Shown here: positions 7,910-23,282 of the stretch, in pieces
Position numbering within the stretch: the first letter of the stretch is position 1
Layout: every line of letters begins with the position of its first letter
Origin: a virus
DNA length: 24,731 bases
Reading direction: 5' to 3' (one strand)
Virus record (IMG/VR): IMGVR_UViG_3300032820_000112
Coordinates: 1 to 24,731 of that record
The notes under the pieces: model-generated
Database searches by the model: none
What the model was told of the DNA's origin: nothing
Seen by the model: only the letters and a program-made list of their open reading frames with translations
Translations under genes and position numbers: made by a program

Positions 7910-8518
7910 ATGGCCGTTTCAAGAACGACTGAACTTCAAGCAATAAACACGATGCTTTCGGCCATCGGTGAGGCTCCAATTAACACGTTAGAACCCACAA
8001 CCGAAACAGCAGATGTTTCGATGGCCAAGAATGTCTTGGAGGAAGTGTCCAGGGAAACCCAAACCATCGGGTGGCACTTCAACAGGGAAACAGATGTAAC
8101 CCTGTCACCTACCGTTGACGATGTGATTCTCATCCCCACCACGGCAGCTTACATTGATGTGGAGTCCATCAACTCCGGCATTACCCAGTACGTCCAGCGG
8201 GGCGAGAAACTGTACAACAAGACGGACCATACCTACGAAATCACCAGTAGCCTGAAATGCACGATTGTTTACATGCTGCCCTGGGATGACCTGCCGCAAG
8301 TGGCTCGTCATTACATCATGATCAAGGCAGCGAGAAGGCTGCAAGATCGAGTAGTGGGGGCCAGCGACCAGCACACTTACAACCAGCTAGATGAGTACCA
8401 GGCCCTTGTAGCCCTAAAGGCTAATGAGGCTCAGGACGGAGACTTCACGATCTTTGATAATAACGATGTGTACCGAATCATAAACCGATCCAATGTTGTG
8501 GATAGGGTGGTGACCTAA
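7910..8518 (+). CDS. gp11: Tail tubular protein A (adaptor/gatekeeper), T7 gp11-like
   Basis: This ring protein joins the portal to the tail nozzle. At 202 residues it is close to the 196 of T7 gp11. The opening (TTELQAINTMLSAIGEAPIN) is the signature of this family. It continues with AKNVLEEVSRETQTIGWHFN, then a beta region with ILIPTTAAYIDVES, and near the C terminus ARHYIMIKAARRLQDRVVGA. AGGAG at 7899-7903 sits 6 bases before the ATG. The stop overlaps the gp12 start by one base (TAATG), giving translational coupling of the two tail-tube proteins in near-equal or fixed ratio. Confidence 0.95.
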   Translation: MAVSRTTELQAINTMLSAIGEAPINTLEPTTETADVSMAKNVLEEVSRETQTIGWHFNRETDVTLSPTVDDVILIPTTAAYIDVESINSGITQYVQRGEKLYNKTDHTYEITSSLKCTIVYMLPWDDLPQVARHYIMIKAARRLQDRVVGASDQHTYNQLDEYQALVALKANEAQDGDFTIFDNNDVYRIINRSNVVDRVVT

Positions 8519-11500
8519 TGGCCAAAGCCTCCTCACTGATTTCTAAGAGCATCCCAAATCTGCTGGGGGGAGTCAGTCAGCAGCCCGATGCGGTACGGTT
8601 TGATAACCAGTGTAGCTCTCAGGACAACGCTTTTCCTTCAGTGCTGGACGGGCTAACCAAGCGGCCACCTACAGAACATATAGCCCAGCTAATCAGTAAC
8701 GATCCTGCACTCAAAAATCCTGAAGACTACTTCTCCCACATCATCAATCTCAGTGCTGATGAACAATACGTCATGCTGGTGGAGGCAGACCACCTACCGG
8801 GATCACGCACGTTCGTCAAGGCAAACACAGATCATCTAGCCGTGACTTCACACGCTGATCTCCAGCGAGCCGCTGATGTAGATTTTTGGTTGAGCGGTTG
8901 GTTTAATCTCACATCCCTAAATGATTACCAGGTGCTTGTCTCAAAGATGGGGGCATCAAGTTCGACCCACGATACTGAATACTCCATCATGCAGGGTGCA
9001 GGTGATTACCTATCCTTCAGGATTGGGAACGGGGTAGATTATCACTGCATCTTAGATTCGCCAGCCGATTCCCTGACAGCGGGTGGGTGGAATTTCTTCC
9101 TTGCGTGGATAATTGATGACACAATGTATCTGCGGCTAAATGCAGGAACCACATACACCGAAGTTATCACTCTCGATCCTGCGGGCCATACTAATTCCGA
9201 TCCCGTAAACTTTGGCAACACGGGGCAAGGGAATGGGGGGACATCCCATCTCGATGGCTCCTTGTCTCGCATGGCATTAGGGAAACCGCCAGCCGCTTTC
9301 GATGCGACTAAGCTCCACAGCTTACTGTATAACAGCGGAAAGGGAGTCACTTTTGCGGATATATCAGATACCGATAAGACGACTTATGGTCTAACATCTG
9401 GTAAAGGATTCTGGTTTGCCCTTGACGAAGAATCAGGTGATTCTGCTGATTCAATTGGGTCGCATGTTGGAACTAGCAGCTACTTACCGGATTCAAATCC
9501 TGGTCCCACGATTGTGGTCAAAAAGTTGTCTGATGGTTCAGCCGTAACCACGCATTCCTCCGTAGCTCTGCGTGAATACTTGCGGATGGCCCAAAGTTCT
9601 TCAACGGCAGAAAAGGACTTAAGGGCCATAACCATCGCTGACTATACGTTTCTGGTGAATCGGTCCAAGGAAGTTGCATTCACCAGCGATACGGATACTG
9701 CCAGAAATCCTGAAGGATTGCTGTATGTGAAAACGGGGGATTATGGCACGATCTACACTGCCACAATAACGATAGGTGGAGTGGAATATAAAACCGAAGT
9801 AACCACACCATCTGGAGTGCAGGTAAAAGAATATGAAACTTCTGGTGGACAGATAGGGAACCTTAAAGCTAATACATTCGATGCTAGAGAGGCGATAGAC
9901 ACGGCCAATATTGGAAAGGCCCTCACGACCGGAACTGCTTACGGCTTCAACTCCTTTAGATACCCCACCAACGCCACAACAGGTGAAGGTGAACCAGACG
10001 GGGGCACTATTACCGAATATATAGATGGGGCCCCATTAGGGGCCGGTGAAATTATATTTAGAGCAGATGCAACTAACGACCATATCGCCTTTGCCACATC
10101 TGGTAGTGGCGACACCATAACTGATAGTAATGAAGCCGGTGAACCCGATTTCTTAAATGCAGGCTTAGAGGCAGGGGATAAAATATTTTGTTCTGGTTCT
10201 GCGGAAAGCGGCAATAATAGCAGGGTATTTGAAGTAGATACGGTAACAGCTACAGTAATAACTATAACGGAATCCGGCGTAGTAACTGCTGCTGCGGATG
10301 AAAAAAACGTCACTATATATAAACTCCCCAGTGAAGCCGTCGCTGGTTCAACTAGTAGCACATTGGTGGGTATCCGTAATGCTGTAGGAATAACCAGAAG
10401 ACGGGAAGGTTCAGTAGCGTGGTTTAAGAGCGATGACGCTACAGACTTCTCGTTAACCGCATCTGATGGCCTGGCTAATACGGCTCTTGTATCCGCTAAA
10501 GCCGAAATCGCCCAACTCACTGACTTACCCACCTTTGCACCCCATGACTTCTTCATGAAAGTCTTGGGGAATGCTGATGAAACGCTTGATGATTACTACA
10601 TTAAATTCAAGGCTGATGACGGTGTATTCTCTACCGGCTCCTGGGAAGAAACCCGTCTGCCTGGAGTAAAGTACAAGCTCGATCCCGCAACAATGCCACA
10701 TGCGCTCATAAAGGAATCGGATGGCACTTTCCGATTCACTCAGTTAGATGAGACTGAACTTGTAGTTGGGCCCACCACTTATCCCGCCGCCCCCATCTGG
10801 GGTGAAAGGATGGCTGGGGACTTGGATACCAACCCGAACCCCACGTTTATCGGACGAACCATAAATGATATGTTTGTATTCAAGAATCGTCTTGGGCTAT
10901 TAGCAGATGAGAACGTCATCCTCAGTGAGACTTCAGAGTTCTTTAACTTCTTCCGTACAACCGTTCTAGACCTACAAGAAACGGCCTATCTCGATGTTGC
11001 GTCTACCCACAGCAGAGTATCAATTCTTACATCCGCTGTGCCATTATCCAAGCAACTGATTTTATTCAGCGACTCTACCCAGTTCATCTTAGGATCGGGT
11101 AATGCCCCCTTGGGCCCAGAGACTGTGGCCATTACAAAAACAACATCCTATGATTCGGTTTTAGACTTACAGCCCATCAGCCTGGGGTCATCCATTTACT
11201 TTGGGTTCTCCCGTGGTAACTTTTCTGGCCTTCGCCAATATCTCCGATCAAGTGATACTGAAACGATATTCGATGCTGAAGACATCTCAGCCCAAGCACC
11301 CCAGTACATCGAGGGCTCCTTGCGGCAAATGACGGGTTCCACCCATGAAGATGTGATATTCCTGTCTACAGACATAAACAGGAATGTGATCTATTGCTAC
11401 AAGTTTCACGACCGGCCAGACTCTGGTCGAGTCCAATCCTCATGGAGTCGCTTTGTTTTCCCTCAAGAAGATGATGTCAGTATTGCTGATGTCATCGGGA

Positions 11501-12204
11501 TGGAGTTTGTGGGCTCCTCCTTATATCTAATCATGAAGAGGACTGATGGTATTTACCTGGAGCGGATGCGTCTAGAGTCTGGATTGGTGGATACTGGGGC
11601 AACATACAGAACCCTGCTGGACCGTAGGACTGACGATACCGCTTGCACGTTCTCCGGGCCAGGTAACCTGACTATAACGCTCCCCTATAAAGTTTATGAT
11701 AGTGATGCGTCTTCCGTCGAGATCATAACTAAGGATGGTAATCGAGTATCTGTAGTCGCCCAAACCAATGGAAGTGCAGACATAACGGTCAACGAGGATT
11801 TGTCGGCCATCGACTTCTTTGTCGGTGAAGCCTATACGATGACCTATGAGTTCAGTAATGTTGTTCTGCGTGAAACCACACTAGGCAACGAGACTGCCCT
11901 TATAAGTCAAGGCCGGAAACAGGTACGGTACTTGTCCTTGGATTATCATGACACATCGTTCTTTAAGGTAACTACCAAGCCTGATTACCGCGATACAAGC
12001 ACCTATTCGTTTACGGGTCGCATCCTGGGCGAAGCCAGCCTTGAACTGAACTCAGTGCCCCTGGATTCAGGGGTCTACAAAGTCCCCATATATTCCAAAG
12101 CAGATCAGGTAACTATAAAGATACTGAATGATTCCCCTCTGCCCTGTGCCATTTCAAGTGCGGAATTTGAGATGTTGTTTAGCGCACGCAGTAGTCGATT
12201 CTAA
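8518..12204 (+). CDS. gp12: Enlarged tail tubular protein B (nozzle), T7 gp12-like, with inserted LamG-like and beta-rich domains
   Basis: This is the tail nozzle protein through which DNA leaves and to which fibres attach. At 1228 residues it is far longer than the 794 of T7 gp12. The N terminus (IPNLLGGVSQQPDAVRFDNQ) is the family signature. Core blocks resume at DLRAITIADYTFLVNRSKEV and continue with NRLGLLADENVILSETSEFF, then TQFILGSGNAPLGPETVAIT. Two extra domains interrupt the core. Residues about 100-325 look like a LamG/concanavalin lectin sandwich (DVDFWLSGWFN, YLSFRIGNG, AGGWNFFLAWIIDDTMYLRL, LDGSLSRMALGK). Residues about 505-605 form a small beta domain (AGLEAGDKIFCSGSAESGNN, VFEVDTVTATVITI). 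The inserts may bind sugars or decorate the nozzle (inference). The start overlaps the gp11 stop. gp12 identity is secure; the insert folds are inferred from sequence pattern only. Confidence 0.93.
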   Translation: MAKASSLISKSIPNLLGGVSQQPDAVRFDNQCSSQDNAFPSVLDGLTKRPPTEHIAQLISNDPALKNPEDYFSHIINLSADEQYVMLVEADHLPGSRTFVKANTDHLAVTSHADLQRAADVDFWLSGWFNLTSLNDYQVLVSKMGASSSTHDTEYSIMQGAGDYLSFRIGNGVDYHCILDSPADSLTAGGWNFFLAWIIDDTMYLRLNAGTTYTEVITLDPAGHTNSDPVNFGNTGQGNGGTSHLDGSLSRMALGKPPAAFDATKLHSLLYNSGKGVTFADISDTDKTTYGLTSGKGFWFALDEESGDSADSIGSHVGTSSYLPDSNPGPTIVVKKLSDGSAVTTHSSVALREYLRMAQSSSTAEKDLRAITIADYTFLVNRSKEVAFTSDTDTARNPEGLLYVKTGDYGTIYTATITIGGVEYKTEVTTPSGVQVKEYETSGGQIGNLKANTFDAREAIDTANIGKALTTGTAYGFNSFRYPTNATTGEGEPDGGTITEYIDGAPLGAGEIIFRADATNDHIAFATSGSGDTITDSNEAGEPDFLNAGLEAGDKIFCSGSAESGNNSRVFEVDTVTATVITITESGVVTAAADEKNVTIYKLPSEAVAGSTSSTLVGIRNAVGITRRREGSVAWFKSDDATDFSLTASDGLANTALVSAKAEIAQLTDLPTFAPHDFFMKVLGNADETLDDYYIKFKADDGVFSTGSWEETRLPGVKYKLDPATMPHALIKESDGTFRFTQLDETELVVGPTTYPAAPIWGERMAGDLDTNPNPTFIGRTINDMFVFKNRLGLLADENVILSETSEFFNFFRTTVLDLQETAYLDVASTHSRVSILTSAVPLSKQLILFSDSTQFILGSGNAPLGPETVAITKTTSYDSVLDLQPISLGSSIYFGFSRGNFSGLRQYLRSSDTETIFDAEDISAQAPQYIEGSLRQMTGSTHEDVIFLSTDINRNVIYCYKFHDRPDSGRVQSSWSRFVFPQEDDVSIADVIGMEFVGSSLYLIMKRTDGIYLERMRLESGLVDTGATYRTLLDRRTDDTACTFSGPGNLTITLPYKVYDSDASSVEIITKDGNRVSVVAQTNGSADITVNEDLSAIDFFVGEAYTMTYEFSNVVLRETTLGNETALISQGRKQVRYLSLDYHDTSFFKVTTKPDYRDTSTYSFTGRILGEASLELNSVPLDSGVYKVPIYSKADQVTIKILNDSPLPCAISSAEFEMLFSARSSRF

Positions 12205-12221
12205 GTTAAAGGTACACATAT

Positions 12222-12986
12222 ATGTCCGACATGCTAACCATTAGCCAAACTACGCCTGCATATGACGCGATAGAGAAGCTCGCGGATAAAGCTGGGTCAG
12301 GGGCCCTTCATAAGGCAAGCGTAGAAATGGCGGTAGCTGGTACGCTACTTTCTGGATTTGAACAGTATCTCACTATTTCAAATCAAATAAAGTACCAAAA
12401 AGATGCCTTTGACAGAGAACTAGACTACAGGAAGAAGGACTTCCGTCACCGGATAAAGGCGTTCTACCAAAACGCTGAGTCCTCAAGAAAAGCCCTAGCT
12501 AAGAATTACAATGCCGTCCTACAAAGTATTGATCAATCTAGAGTGTCCTCCCGAAAGGAGATGTTTGGAATCTTTCAGGAAATGAGGGAGCAGCAAGCTA
12601 GAACCCTGACATCAGCCGCAGACCGGGGGGTCTACGGCAACACGATTAGCTTGCTAATGGACAACATTATGGCCAATGAATTACGGAATATTGAGAACAT
12701 AGCGCAGGAACAAAAGTGGTCTGAACAGGCCAAAATGCGTCAAGCGGACTCACTCTATGCTGATGCAGAAACCCAGCGACTGGCCAGTCTTCCTAGGCCC
12801 CTGGCCCCAGCAGAAGTCCCGCAGTTACCGGCCCAGGTCAATCCTGTAATGGTCGGTATGCAAGCGGCTTCTGCCGGAATCGCAGCTTACGCTAAGATTC
12901 CGGTTCCACCAGAAGTGACTGCACCCCAAGGTAGTGGGGATGAGACTGTGACTGTGACTGAGACTGAGACAGGAAAGGGCAAATAA
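12222..12986 (+). CDS. gp14: Internal virion protein, T7 gp14-like
   Basis: A likely internal core protein that leaves the capsid to form the pore in the outer membrane during infection. It has 254 residues versus 196 in T7 gp14. The first third is helical with a mildly hydrophobic patch (MAVAGTLLSGFEQYLTI). A long charged coiled coil follows (DAFDRELDYRKKDFRHRIKA and onward). The conserved-type stretch ARTLTSAADRGVYGNTISLL, followed by NELRNIE, is typical of this position in T7-like phages. The C-terminal third is Pro/Ala-rich and ends in an alternating Thr/Val/Glu tail encoded by a hexanucleotide repeat. AAAGG at 12208-12212 lies 9 bases before the ATG. The stop overlaps the next start (TAATG). 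Assignment combines order and pattern. Confidence 0.82.
   Translation: MSDMLTISQTTPAYDAIEKLADKAGSGALHKASVEMAVAGTLLSGFEQYLTISNQIKYQKDAFDRELDYRKKDFRHRIKAFYQNAESSRKALAKNYNAVLQSIDQSRVSSRKEMFGIFQEMREQQARTLTSAADRGVYGNTISLLMDNIMANELRNIENIAQEQKWSEQAKMRQADSLYADAETQRLASLPRPLAPAEVPQLPAQVNPVMVGMQAASAGIAAYAKIPVPPEVTAPQGSGDETVTVTETETGKGK
12942..12971 (+). repeat. Five tandem 6-bp units (GAGACT/GTGACT)
   Basis: Units GAGACT, GTGACT, GTGACT, GAGACT, GAGACA run head to tail and encode an ETVTVTETET-type tail from residue 241 of the gp14-like protein. Because the unit is 6 bases, gain or loss of a copy keeps the frame and only changes tail length. Confidence 0.85.
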
Positions 12987-15900
12987 TGGCGACTAGAACC
13001 CCACGGCCCGCCCCCCTACAAACTGTTGCCCCTGTACTAAAACCACAAGACTCCTCTCTTGCTGGTATCCAAAGAACCGTAGCAGCCAAGCCGGGTCGGA
13101 GTGCGCCGGTGGGTGGGACGTTCTCACATCTAGGGGAAAGTCTAGGGAAACTGGGGACCAAAGTAAGAACCCAAGAGGAGATCGCGGCTGACAACTGGTT
13201 ACAGATAGCCACTGAGAATAAGACCTATAGACAGCTTAAGGAACAGCAGGAAAAGATCGTCCGCGATATGGTCAAGAGCGGGCAGCTTCCTGAAGGTATA
13301 CACCCTTTCGCAATCTTCCGCCTTAAAGAATCTATAGGCCAGTCTTACAACAGGGACTATGAACGAAATCTGAGAAATGCGGCCCATAGATGGTATAGGC
13401 AAGATTCCAGTCCTACCGATCTAGAAAGGCCGGAGGACTTTGCCCGAAAACTGTGGGAATCACAAGCTCCTACAGACCCTGTTGCCAGGCGGGCAGCTTC
13501 AGAGCAATTGCCCGGCTTGATTCAGGGGTTCCTGGCTCACATTGATGGGGAGCGGAACAAATGGAACATTGCGGCTGATCGTAGAAACCGACAGCAGAGC
13601 CGTAACGACAATTTTAATGCGAATATGAAGGGGATAGCCCCTGAATACCAAGACCCACCCATAGACCCCAGCACTGGTAAGCCTGAAGCTAATGATAAGG
13701 GCCAATACTTCACTCAGAAATGGGCGGCGACATTCGCAAAGAATAATGGCTTGAATATTATCCTCCCTAAGACGAAAAAGGTTCCTGTCTATGCCCTAGA
13801 TGCCTTTGGAAACTTCGATTTGGATGAGGAAGGCAATAAGATAGATACAGGAAAGGAAGAGACAGTTGAATACCAAGAGCCTAAGTATACGGAAAAGCAA
13901 AAGAAACTCTTAGCCCACATGGCCTTCCTAAATAGGAAGGAAGCCGATAAAACTTATCGGTCCACTGGGGCCAGTGGTCATTTAGAAAACGAGAATGACC
14001 TACTAAACTTTGTGCAAATACAGAGCAAAGAAGTAGAAGCACTAGCAGCAGCGGGCCATCACGACGACGCCGCCACCCTATGGGATAATCTGTCTAGGTT
14101 TGTTACTAGAGTGGGCTTAGAGCAGCACGGACCATTGGCTTTAGGTAACAATGTTTCTTTTCTTTCTAAACTAAATATCGCCCTAATGGGGGCGCAAGGT
14201 AAGCTAAACGATGATGCTTTAAGTGGTGCGGGTACAGCGAAGGCTGATAGGGAAATGGAACATCAAACCTCCGTTTCATATTTCAACGTCCAACAATCGG
14301 GCGAAACACCCAACAACAATAATATCCTAGAGGACATGACCAAGCGAGGGGTTATTACACCCGGAACTACCGCCTATGCGGCAGCGGCGGCTGGAACTAT
14401 TCCCAAAAAAGTAGCAGCCCTGAACCGAATCAACTTGCGGCCAACCGAAGAAGACTTTCAAGAAGTTGCATCAGAAATAAGGGGCGCACCATCTCATGAA
14501 GCCGCAGTGGAGAGGGCGAGAGGATACTACCTCAAAACATACAACGACCCTGAAGTGGCTAATATGATGGTAGCTGCTTCTCAGAGCGTTATACGTCAAT
14601 ACCAAACGGAAGAGCAGAAAAATACCACGCTTTTAACTCAAAAGAGTTGGCATGGATATGTCAATCGAACTAATCGTGAGAATAGTATTAAAGCGATGCT
14701 CAAACCCTATTATGAGTCCTTTGACAACAGAGCGGAGCTAAATAAGGATGCGATTGGCGTAACAATACTAAGTGGTTTAGTCCCCTTTCTAGCCAACGAA
14801 TATATAGCCGGTATACACGCTACGATGTCTGCTGTGAGAAATAGGACTAAGACGGGGGCTGATGGTGAAGAGATTCCTGCACCTGGAACATCGGATGAAA
14901 TGTTTAAGGCGGTCGCTAATTACGATGATGACTTTCGTAAGAATCTGCTTCTCATGACGGCTCCCGACGAAAAGGAAACATATATTCCTGATCAAACCTA
15001 CATGGATGCCTTAAATATACCGGCCTCTTTACAAACGGCAATGCTAGAAGCGGCCACTAGATTACAGACACCTATTGAACAGTTATCTTCGGAAGGCGAA
15101 CCGAAGACGAAGGAACGGGTTAAAAGAATTGGGGGTAATGCCGTTAATAATAGTCTAATGGATGTCCTCCCAACTACCTCAATGGATTCGACAAGCGGGG
15201 CCCACGCCCTTCTACAGAATCCGAATGAATGGGGGTCACAGCTACTATCCGCATGGGGGGGATATAATTGGCAAGCGGCGTTTGGACAGAAAAAGTACCA
15301 AGACCACTTGATGAGGTTGAGGGAGGTACTAGGAGAAAACCAGACATGGTACGGCAACATTTGGCGTAATGCTATGAACTGGGGGGTAGGAGGTTCGGAA
15401 GCAGGGGTTGGGATGGGCGGTTTCGGCAAATGGACAATGAGAGGAGATATCCCTAGAAGAAGGAAACTGGTGATGGGGGCAATAGTAGGTATGGCCCAGG
15501 AGTCATCTGGAAGGAATTGGGGGTATGGTCCTGTACCAGTAGCTAATCCTGAATGGACTCCCAATACCCCCCTCTCCGAACTGGGCTTGAGGAATCCCAA
15601 TCAGGTAGCACAAATGGGATACCGAAGAACATATCTGTCCGTAGCGGGATCAACTGTTCAACAAGCTACCAAATTCGTAACAGGACTCGCAGGATCGCTG
15701 GTGGGTAGTGATGCCAATCCTGTAACGATTAGGGATGAATCCACCGGGAAAACTCGTCCTGCCACATGGGGGGATGCATGGAATATGACAGCAGGTGAAG
15801 TGGCAGACCATGCACTGAACAAAACGGGAGCATTTGTAAATGGCATCCCTTTCCATGCGAGGAACTATGTAATATACACAACCTCTGGCGTAGTAAAACT

Positions 15901-16486
15901 GCCCGATGGAATGATCCCATCAGGAATTGATCCTCATGGAAATCTCGTAGTAACGGATAAGGAACGAAAGGCAATAATAGCCTCATCTGCTGTAGACCAA
16001 GACCTTACTTTTGAATATGTTACAGACCTTAGACTTGGGGCCCTGGCGTTACATCGAGATATTGTCACAAAAACAGGGTACAGCATTCACGGAGTTGATT
16101 TAACGAAGGTTAAAAGTCTAACCAACCCCCAACAGACCCTGTTTACTGCCGATCCAGAAGAATGGCTTCAGTCTCTTTCCACCCTGGATAAAGTTCTTGA
16201 AACGGAAGAGATACCCGTTGAGGAACTAAGGACACATCCCAAAACCAAAGACTTGGAAGTCATACAGTCTTATGGTTTCTATGTAGATTTTTTGGCGACC
16301 GTAGCTAAAAAAGGGGGGACACGACTGGTCCCCATCCCTCTTGCGAACTATATCAAACAACAGGGATACGGGGTCGGGACAATCACCGGCATGTTAGTTA
16401 CTGAATTAGCTGCGCCCGTGCGAAGCCTTATAGATATACCAAGACTTCGTAAGGCCGCTGCTATTCCTGAAAAGGATAAAAAATGA
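12986..16486 (+). CDS. gp15: Internal virion protein, T7 gp15-like, enlarged
   Basis: A large internal core protein, by position the counterpart of T7 gp15, which with gp16 forms the periplasmic tube for DNA ejection. It has 1166 residues against 747 in T7. The N-terminal 50 residues are Pro-rich and basic. A helical region follows (about 55-200) with blocks such as DNWLQIATENKTYRQLKEQQ and GQSYNRDYERNLRNAAHRWY, typical of gp15-like chains. The middle is mixed helix and loop with few hydrophobic segments. The region around 800-900 is Gly/Trp-rich (WGVGGSEAGVGMGGFGKW). No complete transglycosylase motif set is seen. Start and stop overlap both neighbours (TAATG, ATGA), so gp14-, gp15- and gp16-like genes form one translational unit. 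Function is assigned mainly by gene order. Confidence 0.75.
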   Translation: MATRTPRPAPLQTVAPVLKPQDSSLAGIQRTVAAKPGRSAPVGGTFSHLGESLGKLGTKVRTQEEIAADNWLQIATENKTYRQLKEQQEKIVRDMVKSGQLPEGIHPFAIFRLKESIGQSYNRDYERNLRNAAHRWYRQDSSPTDLERPEDFARKLWESQAPTDPVARRAASEQLPGLIQGFLAHIDGERNKWNIAADRRNRQQSRNDNFNANMKGIAPEYQDPPIDPSTGKPEANDKGQYFTQKWAATFAKNNGLNIILPKTKKVPVYALDAFGNFDLDEEGNKIDTGKEETVEYQEPKYTEKQKKLLAHMAFLNRKEADKTYRSTGASGHLENENDLLNFVQIQSKEVEALAAAGHHDDAATLWDNLSRFVTRVGLEQHGPLALGNNVSFLSKLNIALMGAQGKLNDDALSGAGTAKADREMEHQTSVSYFNVQQSGETPNNNNILEDMTKRGVITPGTTAYAAAAAGTIPKKVAALNRINLRPTEEDFQEVASEIRGAPSHEAAVERARGYYLKTYNDPEVANMMVAASQSVIRQYQTEEQKNTTLLTQKSWHGYVNRTNRENSIKAMLKPYYESFDNRAELNKDAIGVTILSGLVPFLANEYIAGIHATMSAVRNRTKTGADGEEIPAPGTSDEMFKAVANYDDDFRKNLLLMTAPDEKETYIPDQTYMDALNIPASLQTAMLEAATRLQTPIEQLSSEGEPKTKERVKRIGGNAVNNSLMDVLPTTSMDSTSGAHALLQNPNEWGSQLLSAWGGYNWQAAFGQKKYQDHLMRLREVLGENQTWYGNIWRNAMNWGVGGSEAGVGMGGFGKWTMRGDIPRRRKLVMGAIVGMAQESSGRNWGYGPVPVANPEWTPNTPLSELGLRNPNQVAQMGYRRTYLSVAGSTVQQATKFVTGLAGSLVGSDANPVTIRDESTGKTRPATWGDAWNMTAGEVADHALNKTGAFVNGIPFHARNYVIYTTSGVVKLPDGMIPSGIDPHGNLVVTDKERKAIIASSAVDQDLTFEYVTDLRLGALALHRDIVTKTGYSIHGVDLTKVKSLTNPQQTLFTADPEEWLQSLSTLDKVLETEEIPVEELRTHPKTKDLEVIQSYGFYVDFLATVAKKGGTRLVPIPLANYIKQQGYGVGTITGMLVTELAAPVRSLIDIPRLRKAAAIPEKDKK

Positions 16487-20335: not shown

Positions 20336-21103
20336 ATGGCATTAAGTTATGTAGAATCAACAGCGTCTGGCGGTCAAACAGAATTCGACTTCAACATCCC
20401 CGTTATCCTGACAACTCATGTCAAGGCTTCTCATGATGGAGCAGCCGTTACCGTTTCATCAGTCAATACCGTCACGGAAAAAGTTGTCCTCTCCCCCGCT
20501 GCTACTGTGGGTATGACGGTTAAAATCTGGCGGGAAACACCTGGACGCTTGGCTTCCCCAGATAACGTGATGCTAACGGACTTTCAAGACGGGTCAGTTC
20601 TGACTGAAGCCGATCTGGATGGGGCTTGCCGACAATTGCTGTACATCAGCCAGGAGGCTGGCGACGATGCTTTCCAAGCTCTGAAGATTGGTGCTTCGGG
20701 AAACTTTATTGCCAAAGTTGGGGCCACCAGCAAAAAGATAACGGACCTTGCAGATGGAACCGCTGGCTCCCAAGACGCATGTACAGTCGCACAGTTGGAG
20801 AGTACGGTAGGAGCAGGAACTCTTACTCCTCAAATTGTAAATATCCCTGTCACACAAGATGCCAGTTTCGATACTGATACCACCGTAACAGTATCAGGGG
20901 TAAACCTCATCAGTGATGTCAATGCCAGGGTCATCTGCACGGTTGGTGGGGTTGTCCAAAGACCCGTAACTACCGAATATGCGGCAGGTGACTATGAAGT
21001 CGCTAATGCTGGAGCTAACTTCACCTTGATCCTGAAGGGCGAAGACATAACGAATGGGGCGGGGAAACTCCTCTACCCCGTCAACTTACAGATACCTTAT
21101 TGA
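20336..21103 (+). CDS. gp17: Tail fibre adaptor with T7 gp17 N-terminal domain
   Basis: The first 115 residues match the T7 tail-fibre N-terminal domain that docks the fibre onto the gp11/gp12 tail. Visible blocks are SGGQTEFDFNIPVILTTHVK, then VKIWRETPGRLASPDNVM, DFQDGSVLTEADLDGACRQL and ISQEAGDDAF. A short linker with TSKKITDLADGTAGSQDACT follows, resembling fibre collar sequence. The last 90 residues form a beta-rich domain (DASFDTDTTVTVSGVNLISD) ending at a Pro-Tyr terminus. No coiled coil or receptor-binding tip is present, so this 255-residue protein is probably an adaptor carrying the next gene's product. AAGGTG at 20324-20329 lies 6 bases before the ATG. T7 gp17 is a single 553-residue protein, so the fibre is split here. 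Confidence 0.88.
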   Translation: MALSYVESTASGGQTEFDFNIPVILTTHVKASHDGAAVTVSSVNTVTEKVVLSPAATVGMTVKIWRETPGRLASPDNVMLTDFQDGSVLTEADLDGACRQLLYISQEAGDDAFQALKIGASGNFIAKVGATSKKITDLADGTAGSQDACTVAQLESTVGAGTLTPQIVNIPVTQDASFDTDTTVTVSGVNLISDVNARVICTVGGVVQRPVTTEYAAGDYEVANAGANFTLILKGEDITNGAGKLLYPVNLQIPY

Positions 21104-21118
21104 TGAGGAATATTTAAT

Positions 21119-22021
21119 ATGGCGATTACTAGAGTACAACCCGGTATGGTCGAGGGAACGGCTATTGTTGGGTCGAAAGCCGGAGCAGACAGCGGTGGAA
21201 CATCTGGACAAGTTGTTCAACTTAATGCATCTAATGAAATTGCAACTGGATATCTCGATACGGGTACTACAGATGGTAAGGTCGTCCTGGCTGGGGGTAG
21301 TGACAAGATTGCTACTTCCCTTATTGATACAGGGACCACAGACGGCAAGATTGTACAGATGCAATCCGGGCCTAAATTACCTGCTGTAGATGGCAGTCTA
21401 CTAACTTCAATTATTGAAGCATTCCCTGTGGGTATGCCGCTGCAAATGCAATCGGCCCAAACGGGCCTGAAGTTTGGCGATCCTTTGGATACTGAATGGG
21501 TTTCCGGTGGCGGCGATGGTACAACCGATAAATTTTATCAAAGCAATGTGAGCAATCTTATTGTCACGCTCACCCCCAAGTTGGCCGCTAGTAAATTTAG
21601 AATAGATGTCACATGGAGTGGTGACTTAAATAACGGGACCGCAGAAAAGTCAGACGAAACTCTCAATAGAGACTTAGGATTCTACCTAGAACAGATTGTG
21701 GATGTCGGAGATGCTAACACGCCCAGTAAATTAACTGGCGTTGTAGAAGGCATTAGACATCCCGTAATCTCCCCCATCTCCATAAGCCAATACGATTCAA
21801 GTAATGACACAAATGCTGTGCATCTACTGAACTGCTCCTTCTCTTACATCGCCACACCATCTTACGAGCTAGGAGAGGTAATATCCTATCAATTGGGGGC
21901 GAGTATTATTGACGAGGACAATACAACTCTGTACACCAATCGTCCAGTCTCTTCTACCGTAGATAATGCCCACATGAGATCAGTTTCCTCCATTATCGTA
22001 ACCGAAATACGAGGCGCATAA
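21119..22021 (+). CDS. Distal tail fibre / receptor-binding protein
   Basis: A 300-residue protein with fibre-like architecture. Residues 30-95 hold two full and one partial copy of a 23-residue repeat, ending in the common collar pattern GPKLPAVDGSLL. The C-terminal two-thirds (about 110-300) is a predicted beta sandwich (NVSNLIVTLTPKLAASKFRI, then LLNCSFSYIATPSYELGEVI). It is probably a trimeric knob that contacts the host receptor (inference). GAGGAA at 21105-21110 sits 8 bases before the ATG. The gene follows the adaptor directly and its stop overlaps the holin start (TAATG). Receptor and host cannot be deduced. Alternatively it could be a minor structural decoration protein. Confidence 0.75.
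   Translation: MAITRVQPGMVEGTAIVGSKAGADSGGTSGQVVQLNASNEIATGYLDTGTTDGKVVLAGGSDKIATSLIDTGTTDGKIVQMQSGPKLPAVDGSLLTSIIEAFPVGMPLQMQSAQTGLKFGDPLDTEWVSGGGDGTTDKFYQSNVSNLIVTLTPKLAASKFRIDVTWSGDLNNGTAEKSDETLNRDLGFYLEQIVDVGDANTPSKLTGVVEGIRHPVISPISISQYDSSNDTNAVHLLNCSFSYIATPSYELGEVISYQLGASIIDEDNTTLYTNRPVSSTVDNAHMRSVSSIIVTEIRGA
21206..21403 (+). repeat. 23-residue tandem repeats in the fibre protein
   Basis: Residues 30-52 and 53-75 share GxVV, a central IAT and an identical DTGTTDGK junction. Residues 76-95 begin the same way (GKIVQ) and end in the collar form. Copies differ at many silent positions. Such repeats usually form the shaft or collar of tail fibres, and recombination between them can swap distal domains. 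Confidence 0.8.
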
Positions 22022-22478: not shown

Positions 22479-23282
22479 ATGGCTAGGGTACTAGTGGCAT
22501 GTGAATTTTCTGGCGTGGTCCGCGATGCCTTCATCCGACAGGGACACGACGCTGTGTCCTGCGACCTGTTGGACACTGAAGTAGAAGGCCCACACATCAA
22601 GGGTGATGTCCTGAAAGTTCTGGATGGCTGGTGGGACATGATGATTGCCCATCCACCCTGTACCTATCTATGTTCATCGGGGTTGCACTGGAACAAAAGG
22701 CGACCAGAACGGCAGCAGAAAACAGAAGAGGCTTTAGAATTTGTAGAAGCACTGCTCTCCGCACCTATCCCGCTTATCGCATTAGAGAACCCCATCGGCT
22801 GCATAAGCACAAGGATTCGTCCTTACGACCAAAAGATACAACCGTGGCAGTTTGGGCATGATGCCAGTAAAGGCACATGCCTGTGGTTAGATGGCCTTCC
22901 CCCTCTTGAACCCACAGACATATTCCCTCCCCATCAATACCGTCTAGTGAAATTCGCCATGACGCTACCTCTCTGTGACTGCTGTGGTGAAGAGGCGTGG
23001 TGTGATCAGCATGAAACCCACTTTGCTGACTGTGAATGCATTGGCCCTACCCAAGATGGGGTTGAATACAAGACCGTAGACAAATGGCTTTTCGGGACTA
23101 AAGAATCTCTACCAATAAAACCCGTTTGGGCTAACCAAACCCCAAGTGGTCAGAATAAACTGGGACCATCGGCCAACCGTTGGGCGTTGAGATCAATAAC
23201 ATACGCTGGAATTGCTGAAGCTATGGCCAACCAATGGGGAAACCTTCTGACCAAGAAGGAAAACCATGAATACGCAACTTAA
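22479..23282 (+). CDS. Cytosine-C5 DNA methyltransferase-like protein
   Basis: A 267-residue protein resembling phage DNA cytosine methyltransferases. Motif I-like VLVACEFSGVVRDAF opens the protein as an AdoMet-binding strand-loop-helix, followed by HDAVSCDLLD (motif II-like). Motif IV is HPPCTYLC, with the putative catalytic Cys61. Motif VI-like ALENP holds Glu103, which would protonate the cytosine ring. A Cys/His cluster (Cys166, 168, 169, 175, His178, His181, Cys185, Cys187) could bind zinc and may replace part of the target-recognition domain. Length is below that of standard Dcm enzymes (about 330-470), so the recognition region is reduced. It may protect phage DNA from restriction, or act in a modification pathway (inference). 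It sits between the two terminase genes and overlaps the large-subunit start by 17 bases. Confidence 0.82.
   Translation: MARVLVACEFSGVVRDAFIRQGHDAVSCDLLDTEVEGPHIKGDVLKVLDGWWDMMIAHPPCTYLCSSGLHWNKRRPERQQKTEEALEFVEALLSAPIPLIALENPIGCISTRIRPYDQKIQPWQFGHDASKGTCLWLDGLPPLEPTDIFPPHQYRLVKFAMTLPLCDCCGEEAWCDQHETHFADCECIGPTQDGVEYKTVDKWLFGTKESLPIKPVWANQTPSGQNKLGPSANRWALRSITYAGIAEAMANQWGNLLTKKENHEYAT

Follow-up and report, generated by a model that had tools for sequence, protein, structure and literature searches.

The nozzle gene in the window (the whole stretch analyzed, 24,731 nucleotides of IMG/VR record IMGVR_UViG_3300032820_000112) contains an additional segment that is supported as a LamG/ConA-like beta-sandwich by a gapped alignment, an independent profile and a predicted fold. 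The alignments place this insert in a beta-hairpin turn of the propeller domain and indicate that, compared with stand-alone phage LamG proteins, its order is circularly permuted. The domain type and the protein are both known; what is new is the site, found in one virus, and the permuted order.

The nozzle gene and its core

The nozzle protein gene (gp12, or tail tubular protein B, type) occupies positions 8518–12204 on the plus strand and encodes 1228 aa; the parts of the nozzle described below lie on the same strand. Its product covers the whole Phage_nozzle profile of Pfam (PF25675, E 1.3e-210), scoring 702 bits against a curated cut-off of 27, and thus belongs to this family. It also matches PHROG 457 (E 5.8e-204) and, among PDB sequences, the nozzles of P-SCSP1u (8i4m, E 1.6e-119) and T7 (6r21, E 4e-86). 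The upstream neighbor is a gp11-type adaptor gene (7910–8518; Pfam Tube, E 1.5e-46). The T7 gp12 and P-SCSP1u nozzles occupy the same place after a gp11-type adaptor gene, and they resemble the window protein over the entire nozzle core, colinear on either side of the insert.

Borders and site of the insert

The insert comprises residues 92–329 (8791–9504), approximately 238 residues between the equivalents of T7 gp12 residues 85 and 86, and is recognized by its absence from two relatives, a profile match, a predicted fold and PDB fold matches. A sequence-only reading of this DNA had placed it at 8818–9490; the insert is real, as are the ORF and the peptides quoted for it, but those borders were slightly too narrow. 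Its position between two segments of gp12 core was confirmed by PDB alignments of the nozzle ORF, which stop near residue 89 and restart at 352–363, and by gapped alignment to insert-free relatives. Two of these (IMG/VR sequences L002 and L003), 64–66% identical to the window nozzle outside the insert, read ...YAVVIKAD/GSAVPTIKVSKL... across the join (slash; GSAVPTIKV follows VVIKAD), where the window protein reads ...YVMLVEAD/HLPG...SNPG/PTIVVKKL....

The propeller strand preceding the insert (residues 82–91, QYVMLVEAD, 8761–8790; predicted strand 82–89) aligns with T7 gp12 up to residue 85, and the strand following it (residues 330–337, PTIVVKKL, 9505–9528) aligns with T7 gp12 from residue 86 and with L003. 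In the alignment with T7 and P-SCSP1u, the join falls at 85/86 of both, within the turn YYAVFTGSG/IRVFDL. This turn is tight in those two nozzles, whereas the window protein has 238 extra residues there; T7 gp12 indeed lacks such a domain, as had been claimed. Continuous alignment of the segment with other gp12 cores was not seen, since L002, L003, T7 and P-SCSP1u all gap at this point. In a model of residues 1–1199, strands 71–79 and 82–89 run into the insert, which is itself not folded in that model because the LamG rows, misplaced when added, were left out of its alignment.

In the T7 nozzle, blade 1 contains the first propeller strand, and the chain leaves for the tip from blade 3, where Y146 sits at the opening (PMC6702177). 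Counted from these placements, the turn is most likely the B–C turn of blade 2. The tail-tip location previously proposed for the LamG domain therefore does not hold, since its site is a propeller turn and the nozzle-tip loop (T7 185–210) carries a different, second insert (residues 489–622, 9982–10383). This unrelated insert is common to L002 and L003, whereas T7 gp12 and P-SCSP1u are without a tip insert (T7 207/208).

Sequence relationships of the insert

Searches with the insert alone against Pfam, NCBIfam, PHROGs and PDB sequences gave nothing significant. Jacalin-type lectins, which appeared at E 0.2 in direct searches, were taken as noise. By tblastn, no match was found in phages and those in plasmids were chance matches at E 4, while a pattern search of genome contigs gave 110 matches, none of them confirmed. 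Because no direct match to Pfam Laminin_G_3 (PF13385) exceeded the curated cut-off, the insert is assigned to the ConA-like fold superfamily and not to PF13385.

Stand-alone proteins of approximately 240 aa (L007–L009) were found through the motif D.DFWL..W. Alignment scores between these and the insert were 124 and 120, compared with 36–38 ± 6 for shuffles, and L007 scores above the cut-off of Laminin_G_3 (E 2.7e-10). Because this motif came from the query, an independent profile was built from 12 phage LamG domains chosen solely by a different motif, from the opposite end of the fold (LDEASGTR.DS.G), with the insert excluded. All 10 scanned proteins of this collection pass the Laminin_G_3 cut-off in a Pfam scan, and seven of these supplied seed domains for the profile. 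Positions 43–216 of the profile match the LamG core of the insert (residues 96–277, 8803–9348) with an i-E of 1.2e-18 when two sequences were searched and of 6e-14 when the search covered every ORF of the loci. Homology to known members of the ConA-like/LamG superfamily was thus detected by way of this 12-domain profile; identity to every relative found is low, about 20–28%. Phage Laminin_G_3-type domains (L007, L014, L015, L025, L031 and others) share with the insert the core profile match, the motifs and the LamG fold, but they are stand-alone or arranged in tandem arrays, whereas the insert appears as a single permuted unit inside a nozzle.

Predicted fold

An AlphaFold2 model of residues 86–334 (31-row alignment; pLDDT 80, pTM 0.82) is mainly beta, with two helices close to the end. 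The best solved matches in Foldseek are laminin alpha2 LG5, laminin LG4-5, perlecan LG3, agrin and neurexin, with E from 1.4e-7; NanB sialidase, CBM40 and thrombospondin N-domains rank lower. Phage ConA-like/LamG proteins account for many of the named top matches in the Foldseek viral library. The predicted structure is thus a LamG-type sandwich of the ConA-like superfamily, and not one lacking a beta-sandwich. Together with the independent profile match, these laminin-G top matches bear out the LamG/concanavalin-like fold that had been suggested for this segment. Among solved structures, the closest folds are those of eukaryotic laminin G/LNS domains (laminin alpha2 LG5, 1qu0; agrin; neurexin), at E 1.4e-7 and a TM of 0.68 by target length, but no sequence relation to the insert was detected and, because of the permutation, the strands at the chain ends come in another order.

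Circular permutation and origin

Stand-alone phage LamG proteins start with ..LVGYWKLDEASGNALDSLGSNTLT.., followed by F.ASSEYL...LYNNGLG. The corresponding first segment of the insert is found at its end (GFWFALDEESGDSADSIGS, residues 297–315), behind YNSGKGVTFADISDTDK. Profile positions 43–216 match first along the insert and positions 7–23 afterwards, within a region (residues 271–315, YNSGKG...LDEESGDSADSIGS, 9328–9462) that comprises an inter-domain linker and the permuted first LamG strand and that is continuous with the tandem array L015. When L008 was doubled, its alignment score rose from 120 to 151, in a single continuous alignment with the insert, and the AlphaFold2 insert model retains a strand at residues 297–300.

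The order of the insert is natural in tandem arrays. The L015 array, which reads LGKPPGAI...SLYNGGNGLAYAELTAQQKSDWGLEAYWEFDEASGTRKDSHG, matches the insert end to end with a score of 207 against 37.5 ± 5.7, so the simplest history would be that a single repeat period was taken, out of phase, from an array of this kind. This array follows terminase, portal, scaffold and major head genes in a phage of another kind. The permuted order would provide a concrete example of a tandem-repeat unit that was captured out of phase with the domain still complete.

Distribution of nozzle inserts

Relatives were surveyed in a nozzle sample taken from two IMG/VR scans (best 80 of each, the second seeded with long nozzles), from which near-identical sequences were partly removed, so that the results count sequences and do not give frequencies. 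No insertion of at least 30 aa at this turn was found in the 118 nozzle sequences other than that of the window virus, and none of the 118 gave a credible LamG match (best i-E 0.16). A limited literature search for LamG in connection with tail tubular proteins likewise found none.

Unrelated inserts of at least 30 aa are present at T7 185–210, the nozzle-tip region, in 25 of the 118 sequences, and at T7 107 in two and T7 316 in one. The nozzle-tip loop is an insertion hotspot. Carriers of tip-loop inserts (T7 gp12 185–230) include the window nozzle (9982–10383), L044, L096, L104, L145, L179 and others. Near T7 gp12 107, in the propeller region, L046 (1929–4856) and L059 (1486–4416) contain a 115-aa insert (AGAGSTATITFSGLP...) without a Pfam match. 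An endosialidase-type beta barrel (PF12195, E 9.7e-12) forms part of the tip insert of L096, and CBM5/12-like motifs were detected in L179, near the tip loop, and in L160 (E 2e-4 to 4e-4, below the curated cut-off). These three nozzles thus resemble that of the window in carrying foreign loop modules, some of a sugar-binding type. The insert-bearing nozzles differ from it in their domains and in their sites, which are mostly at T7 185–230, with one at 316 and two at 107.

Possible function of the nozzle LamG domain

In short-tailed phages, receptor binding is, by the textbook view, the task of fibers and spikes. In the hexameric nozzle, the propellers provide the tightest gate and have to be displaced for it to open (PMC6702177). 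An important role in adsorption has been stated for the T7 nozzle, whose extended tail channel is linked to LPS (PMC11784390). Recombinant TTPB from the Vibrio phage OWB both binds the receptor Vp0980 and blocks adsorption (PMC7241545). Because of the OWB and T7 precedents, six LamG domains on the nozzle are most economically interpreted as accessory surface-binding modules. In this reading, the nozzle has gained one complete, circularly permuted LamG/ConA-like sandwich in a propeller hairpin turn, from which the domain would hang while leaving the propeller unbroken, and six copies would ring the hexamer. Their most likely target would be a glycan of the host surface (LPS, capsule or exopolysaccharide) or a surface protein, bound by an accessory receptor-binding module working together with the fibers. 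The sugar-binding surface suggested for the tail in the sequence-only reading is thus a plausible, though putative, function. We give this proposal about an even chance; the outward exposure of the domain, its ligand and its role in adsorption are inferred, as is the blade number. The endosialidase-type barrel and CBM5/12-like motifs inserted in other nozzles support it, and the occurrence of the LamG insert in one virus only counts against it. The tube through which the DNA is ejected would then probably bear six additional modules that grip surfaces, besides the tail fibers.

A further point against this proposal is that LamG folds can also mediate contacts between proteins or play structural parts. 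The domain could instead pack between nozzle subunits or against the fiber bases and stabilize the tail with no external ligand, which we consider rather unlikely. In T7, gp12 monomers contact each other most strongly through propeller loops (PMC6702177), and the L015 array stands just after a major head gene, a place typical of structural or decoration proteins, both consistent with such a role. However, nozzles 64–66% identical to this one manage without the domain, as do all 118 of the other nozzle sequences.

More doubtful still is that the domain is a near-neutral passenger, captured by illegitimate recombination and tolerated in a permissive loop without a selected function. Its presence in a single virus and its apparent excision out of phase from a tandem repeat would fit this history. 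On the other hand, approximately 700 bases have been held in an open frame, and the domain is complete, including the permuted strand. The insert has no GC or GC3 anomaly marking recent transfer; its composition is like that of the genome elsewhere, so that it does not look recent. Its low identity (about 20–28%) to every relative found likewise speaks against a passenger.

A second record, L001 (IMGVR 3300032278_000221), contains the same insert and joins; of 16,642 bases, 3 differ from the window, and all 3 lie outside the insert. It represents the same virus and no second lineage, and the insert is thus known from one virus in two near-identical records. Although this virus is known from metagenome assemblies only, a chimera in which an assembly error fused two genes is hardly credible and was rejected, because L001 has identical joins, base composition is continuous, the frame is open through both joins and the insertion falls exactly in a hairpin turn.

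Together, a lectin-type nozzle domain and the modules in related tip loops suggest that the ejection tube can be re-equipped for surface recognition, an idea made testable by the existence of clean relatives with and without the insert. A bolder extension, which we regard as improbable, is that the nozzle is a second receptor-binding apparatus: ligand engagement by LamG domains on the gate propellers could help to trigger channel opening independently of the fibers, and acquired loop modules may be a general means for aquatic podophages to change surface recognition.

Other genes in the window

Downstream of the nozzle gene, a 1166-aa ORF (12986–16486) occupies the place of an internal virion protein and gave no match in a PHROG search. 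In the tail fiber gene region (20336–22021), the fiber is short (255 aa), with the T7 fiber N-terminal domain at residues 3–158. It is followed by a 300-aa ORF without a family match, possibly a distal fiber part. A DNA methyltransferase-like gene (22479–23282; PHROG 757, E 6.5e-59) is located between the small terminase gene and, at 23266, a gene resembling that of the large terminase.
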